Under the pieces are notes generated by a model. That model did not search any database and was not told where the DNA came from. It saw only the letters and a program-made list of their open reading frames with translations. A stretch of 32,194 nt of DNA from Synechococcus sp. UW140 (GTDB taxonomy: Bacteria > Cyanobacteriota > Cyanobacteriia > PCC-6307 > Cyanobiaceae): the NCBI GenBank assembly GCA_945861595.1, contig CAMAVE010000015.1, forward strand, positions 1 through 32,194, written 5' to 3'. Position 1 is the stretch's first letter, and each line of letters starts with the position of its first letter. The position numbers and the translations under genes are program-made. Shown one piece after another: positions 13,794 to 15,171 of the stretch.

Positions 13794-13848
13794 CTGGAGG
13801 AAAGCCCCCAGGCCCCAGGCCCCTGGCGCCCTAGGGGCTTTCCTCCAG
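13794..13848. repeat. 15-bp perfect inverted repeat between convergent pepP and HAD genes
   Basis: Arms CTGGAGGAAAGCCCC (13794-13808) and GGGGCTTTCCTCCAG (13834-13848) are perfect complements around a 25-nt, GC-rich spacer that can itself fold. The right arm encodes the last residues LEESP of the HAD protein and its TAG lies just inside. Neither strand has a T tract after the hairpin, so a classical intrinsic terminator is not shown, but its place between convergent genes suggests a bidirectional transcript end or RNA stabiliser. Confidence 0.7.
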
Positions 13849-14619
13849 CCAATCAAGCAGCAGCGCCGGCGTCAGGCTGGCCGTGTGGCTGAGCAGCCGG
13901 TCAGCCCCGGCGTCCAGGAGGCCCTGTTCATAGGCCTGGCGCGCCTCCAGGTGCTCGGCTCCGTGCAGGTGGGGTGGGGCCACGGCGAGGCTCTGCCAGC
14001 GCTGCTGGGGCTGGGCTTGGCGGGCCCGCTGCACTGTCATCACGTCGGCCACCGTGTCGCCCAGGTAGGCGATCGGCGGGGCCTCCGGCCCGAGGGGGCA
14101 GCCGGCCAGGGCCTCGGCCAGGCGCAGGAGCCCCGTGGGATCGGGTTTGTCGGGGGCATCGCCCATGGCGATCAGGGGTGGATTGGTGAGGCCGAGCCGT
14201 TGCTGCAACACGTAGCGGGCCGAGGGCGGTTCGGCGCCACTAACGAACCCCCAGGCGATGGTCTGGTCCGAGAGCGCCTCAAAAAAGGCCTGGGACACCA
14301 GCAGGGGTTCGCTGCCGATGAAGCCCCGCCAGCGGGCCGGATCACCCTCGGGGTCGCCACCGAAATAGAAGGCGCTGAACACCGCCACCAGGGCGTCGAA
14401 CGCGGGCAGGGGGCTGTGGCCGCCGCGGCGCAACAGCTCTAGGGAGGCCTCCCAGTCGTTGTTCCAGCGCCCTTCGCCCTTGAGGGCATCGATGCTGGCC
14501 GGTTCCGGGCGCCAACCGCCGTAGTGGTGCACCGTTTCGCTGAGGGCGCGCCGGTAGCTACCGGCCACATCCCGCACCACCCCATCAATGTCGAACAGCA
14601 GAATGGCGCGCGGTCTCAG
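13831..14619 (-). CDS. HAD superfamily IA hydrolase, non-AUG start
   Basis: A haloacid-dehalogenase-type phosphatase of the cyanobacterial/archaeal HAD-IA hypothetical group (TIGR01548-like). The conserved N-terminal motif LLFDIDG, with catalytic Asp10 and Asp12, is encoded upstream of the first ATG (14580), which directly follows it. Between that ATG and the in-frame TAA at 14644-14646 there is no ATG, GTG or TTG. The best start is CTG at 14617-14619, with GGGAG 7 nt upstream; ATT at 14602-14604 is an alternative. This gives 262 residues. Later motifs fit: Lys158 in DKPDPTG and Asp188 in YLGDTVADV. The substrate is unknown. Starting at 14580 would delete the nucleophile, so I reject it. Confidence 0.82.
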   Translation of the reverse strand: MRPRAILLFDIDGVVRDVAGSYRRALSETVHHYGGWRPEPASIDALKGEGRWNNDWEASLELLRRGGHSPLPAFDALVAVFSAFYFGGDPEGDPARWRGFIGSEPLLVSQAFFEALSDQTIAWGFVSGAEPPSARYVLQQRLGLTNPPLIAMGDAPDKPDPTGLLRLAEALAGCPLGPEAPPIAYLGDTVADVMTVQRARQAQPQQRWQSLAVAPPHLHGAEHLEARQAYEQGLLDAGADRLLSHTASLTPALLLDWLEESP

Positions 14620-14661
14620 GTCAGGGCTCCCGGGGCTGGTAGGTTAGTTGTTTGTCCCTAA

Positions 14662-15171
<510 letters not shown>

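Follow-up and report, generated by a model that had tools for sequence, protein, structure and literature searches.

The HAD hydrolase gene of the window (the whole 32,194-nucleotide stretch of Synechococcus sp. UW140 DNA analysed here) very probably starts at the CTG codon at 14619-14617 of the minus strand, a start that would keep the whole active site in the protein. Comparison of orthologues indicates that this CTG is the inherited start of the HAD gene in most picocyanobacteria (Synechococcus/Cyanobium and relatives) and not a lesion, and that other weak starts, namely ATC, TTG and rarely GTG, occupy the same place in some lineages. The gene, its candidate starts and its divergent neighbour lie as follows.

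13831..14619, minus strand: TIGR01548-family HAD-IA hydrolase gene, 262 codons plus a TAG stop, with a proposed CTG start (profile match and visible motifs)
14617..14619, minus strand: proposed CTG start codon (orthologue slot CTG/TTG/ATC/GTG, in frame, at a near-fixed distance to an upstream element)
14578..14580, minus strand: GTG, the first standard in-frame start, a false one which gene callers would pick with loss of FDIDG (sequence and ORF list)
14644..14646, minus strand: in-frame TAA, the upstream closure of the HAD frame (sequence)
14665..15171, plus strand: divergent ycf65/PSRP-3 ribosomal-protein gene, with a TTG start at 14665 or an ATG at 14680 (PF04839, 94 bits)

The HAD frame, on the minus strand, begins behind the TAA at 14646-14644 and reads PTSPGSPDLRPRAILLFDIDGVVRD..., in codons CCT ACC AGC CCC GGG AGC CCT GAC CTG AGA CCG CGC GCC ATT CTG CTG TTC GAC ATT GAT GGG GTG GTG. 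As the first-pass annotation had stated, there is no ATG, GTG or TTG between this TAA and position 14580. That annotation had placed a first ATG there, just after LLFDIDG; the codon at 14580-14578 is in fact a GTG, which leaves the conclusion unaffected. It is the first standard start in the frame and falls inside the catalytic motif (FDIDG|VVR). For HAD motif I to be part of the protein, a start upstream of 14580 is needed. The prediction that automatic callers would truncate the protein also held, in that a mechanical ORF call starts at the GTG at 14580 and gives 249 amino acids without FDIDG. The GGGAG reported 7 nt upstream of the CTG was found at 14631-14627, and both positions were confirmed.

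The HAD protein scored 170.5 bits against the TIGR01548 profile, above the curated cut-off of 140.2, and motifs I-IV (DxD, S/T, K, GDxxxD) are present as FDIDG, FVSG, DAPDKPDP and GDTVADV. It therefore belongs to the TIGR01548 (HAD-SF-IA-hyp1) sequence family, although the family name tells nothing about the start codon. A search of the PDB returned no sequence relative.

Orthologues were gathered by searches as 306 loci, 230 of them distinct. Just upstream of the HAD gene, 136 of the 230 distinct loci carry a conserved DNA element, ACTAACCTA[C/A]CAG[C/T], an element-bearing locus being one with at most 3 mismatches to it, and ycf65 adjoins the element in 135 of the 136. Most picocyanobacterial orthologues also have no standard start near FDIDG, and, of the 88 element-bearing orthologues that meet a frame-closing stop within 53 codons, 59 have no ATG, GTG or TTG at all before FDxDG. 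An in-frame CTG is found 14-22 nt past the element in 113/136 orthologues, against 0 and 3 for the other two frames, and an in-frame ATG in this interval in none of the 136. The loci without CTG have, at or near the slot, TTG (11), ATC (6) or GTG (1-2), and only 5 of the 136 have no start-like codon in the slot. One of these five, L154, is from another family and its element match is probably spurious; in the other four (L052, L060, L157 and L220), which are family loci with the element, a CTG is seen at 5 or 37 nt, or there is none.

Relative to the HAD frame, the element itself occurs in each of the three phases (40, 39 and 37 loci, counted among loci labelled CTG by an in-frame CTG, so that 113, 0 and 3 are the unbiased figures), with at least 25 phase changes on the protein tree, and the CTG stays in frame. 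Indels upstream of the CTG thus include non-triplet ones, whereas those downstream are all triplets. The codon at the slot is also restricted. Leucine is written there as CTG in 115 cases, TTG in 4 and other codons in 5, whereas in the adjacent Leu-Leu columns CTG and TTG together number 160 against 97 other leucine codons (Fisher p = 3.6e-14 against the 119/5 of the slot, the p-values being inflated by relatedness and the contrast being drawn within the same sequences). For downstream leucines the counts are 453 and 299.

From the slot to FDIDG the codons vary mostly synonymously (Pro, Arg and Ala columns), and upstream of the slot there is no peptide conservation. In 56 loci in-frame stops lie inside or at the edge of the stretch between element and start, in some directly before the slot (TAA CTG in L019, TGA TAT CTG in L112 and TGA TCT CTG in L104). 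What would mark a rare start is found on two counts: essential coding sequence with no ATG, GTG or TTG upstream of it, and a non-canonical start that is kept in orthologues and swapped only for start-like codons.

In the alignment of orthologous start codons, the check suggested by the first-pass annotation, the CTG slot was kept across most picocyanobacterial orthologues. In the window's family, CTG occurs behind the element in 18 genus-level groups, with all six genomes of the window's genus among them; the 5 congeners have the identical CTG and an identical intact frame. ATC is found at the slot in group g24 and in the Synechococcus lacustris group, and TTG in many Prochlorococcus-like groups; the homologous column in Prochlorococcus-like genera is TTG or ATG. 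Where a lineage lacks the element, this column or its vicinity mostly shows ATG or TTG. Most other families of the class have an ATG start in the HAD gene, and ATG was assigned in 13 of the 15 other-family loci that were given a start by the labelling rule.

The first-pass annotation had left the choice between a rare start and a sequence error. Orthologue comparison favours the rare CTG start, and a lost ATG or GTG in the assembly, or a pseudogene, can be set aside as practically negligible; the missing standard start would fit such a lesion, and nothing more does, while the 5 congeners and more than 100 other species share the CTG arrangement with intact frames. It is very unlikely that translation begins further downstream, at a CTG of the Leu-Leu pair (14601 or 14598) or at the ATT at 14604 that had also been proposed, giving a shorter protein with both aspartates. 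These are near-cognate codons upstream of FDIDG as well, but their columns freely use CTC, CTT, CTA, TTA and GTT in orthologues. Such codon usage disfavours the Leu-Leu CTGs, and the ATT was rejected as not conserved, being GTT in congener L007 and GTC, GTG, ATC or CTG elsewhere. Furthermore, the preceding Pro-Arg-Ala codons vary mostly synonymously and are therefore translated. Slightly less probable still is that the CTG owes its conservation solely to the ycf65 promoter, the complementary CAG lying near a would-be -35. The slot does lie 14-22 nt behind the proposed extended -10 of ycf65, but the spacing shifts by several nt with the HAD frame kept (the 113 in frame, 0 and 3 out, and at least 25 phase changes described above), and the replacement codons are start-like. 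It is this frame locking that disfavours a mere -35 role.

The conserved element may provide the promoter for both divergent genes.

14635..14648, minus strand: conserved element ACTAACCTACCAGC, core TAACCTA, with TANNNT on both strands; positions 4, 8, 9 and 11-13 are invariant in 131 loci
14637..14645, plus strand: proposed extended -10 (TGnTAGGTT) of the ycf65/PSRP-3 promoter, deduced from the consensus (AnnnTA and the CAG complement invariant)
14641..14646, minus strand: proposed overlapping -10 (TAACCT) towards the HAD gene, deduced from TANNNT in 130/136

TANNNT is found towards ycf65 in all 136 loci and towards the HAD gene in 130, so that overlapping -10 boxes lie on both strands, as in a bidirectional promoter. 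A sigma-70 scan for a -35/-10 pair at the locus found nothing. A search of the whole genome found a single copy of the element, which rules out a genome-wide regulatory motif. We infer that the element would act as a pseudo-symmetric promoter for ycf65 and the HAD gene, and, counted from the transcription start so predicted, the leader of the HAD mRNA would measure about 15-20 nt. Known bacterial promoters of the bidirectional, pseudo-symmetric type (PMC12825309, PMC10268837) likewise carry TANNNT boxes that overlap on the two strands in the space separating divergent genes; the promoter proposed here differs in having the TG of the extended -10 only towards ycf65. The start of ycf65/PSRP-3 is itself ambiguous (14665-14682), and may be the TTG at 14665, where there is a conserved CTTGAGCGCTG block on the strand of that gene, and not the ATG at 14680.

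Within the genus of the window the GGGAG is kept as a Shine-Dalgarno motif (GGAG/AGGAG). Since an SD-like motif is present in only 9/136 orthologues, the window's genus among them, initiation does not generally depend on it, and GGGAG as a general ribosome site was ruled out. The leader folded no better than its shuffles around the start. In this genome the initiator tRNA is of the ordinary kind with three G-C pairs, so that its discrimination is expected to be normal; a tRNA-fMet with relaxed discrimination was ruled out, and the tolerance of CUG is unexplained by it. In E. coli, initiation at CUG is 0.86% of that at AUG, and CUG makes up 0.024% of annotated bacterial starts and is held to be very inefficient (PMC11497404).

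We propose that the initiator tRNA probably decodes the CTG at 14619-14617 as fMet, yielding a protein of 262 aa. The HAD gene would be transcribed outward from the symmetric promoter of the divergent ycf65, with a short leader that in most species lacks a Shine-Dalgarno site, and the weak start would hold a low-demand phosphatase down despite a strong ribosomal-protein promoter shared with it. The transcription start, the bidirectionality of the promoter, the low expression and the selection for weakness are all deduced steps of this proposal. That a weak start without SD throttles a phosphatase driven by the ycf65 promoter is a tentative suggestion, and it is conceivable, though we would not call it probable, that a poor start (CTG, ATC or TTG, never ATG) is deliberately maintained across the family to hold phosphatase at a fixed, low proportion of ribosomal protein, perhaps with tuning through initiation fidelity (IF3).

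With slightly less than an even chance, the CTG would be a start without regulatory meaning, a near-neutral relic in a low-expression gene in which start mutations are rare. The codon changes at the slot are few (at least 9 on the tree, among element-bearing loci), and neither SD nor structure is generally conserved, as this explanation would have it. Against it, ATG is found at none of the 136 element-bearing loci although it is one substitution away from CTG, ATC, which takes two steps, is found in separate lineages, and ATG is used where the HAD gene does not stand directly behind the element. That no ATG occurs behind the element speaks for selection for weakness without proving it; with so few independent codon changes it may also reflect the rarity of change.

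The loci in which another gene intervenes bear on the throttle proposal. In several Cyanobium-like and Synechococcus lineages a transaldolase/fructose-6-phosphate aldolase-like gene, its identity assigned by eye from the gene product, separates the HAD gene from the element (L040, L042, L044, L045, L059, L069, L072, L073 and L084). At these loci the element remains beside ycf65. ATG is the start of the inserted gene and, mostly, of the HAD gene as well, whose ATG in some cases overlaps the upstream stop as TGATG. For the association of ATG with loss of the element there are two supported independent pairs on the tree, too few for independent-pairs statistics.

Conserved rare starts of this kind are known from two other bacterial genes. 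In Streptomyces, sigR has a GTC start in 32 of 34 species and GTT in 2, and is repressed by IF3, and infC, which encodes IF3, starts at ATT/ATC (PMC5472188). Like the HAD start, that of sigR is non-canonical across a clade, was overlooked by gene callers and is swapped only for another rare start; unlike most HAD orthologues, which have no SD-like motif, sigR has a strong conserved ribosome binding site and proven IF3 control. With infC the HAD gene shares a conserved weak start, ATC being found at the HAD slot too, whereas infC autoregulates and no link between the HAD gene and initiation is known. In outline the cases are similar, the HAD case being wider in taxa and without the strong ribosome binding site. 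The infC of the present genome appears to start at ATG, and a rare infC start was set aside here.

A search of open-licence papers returned no report of a CTG start in the HAD gene. A CUG start kept over 18 genera would rank among the best comparative cases of functional bacterial CUG initiation, and the hydrolase is likely to be mis-annotated without its catalytic aspartates in many Synechococcus/Cyanobium genomes. Looking for slots that are both frame-locked and restricted in codon choice, at a fixed distance from a promoter, would be a simple method to find other hidden starts.

Besides the divergent ycf65/PSRP-3, the HAD gene has an aminopeptidase P-like gene as its convergent neighbour. 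The 55 nt between these convergent genes (13794-13848) match their own reverse complement at 86%, and probably form a hairpin or bidirectional terminator.
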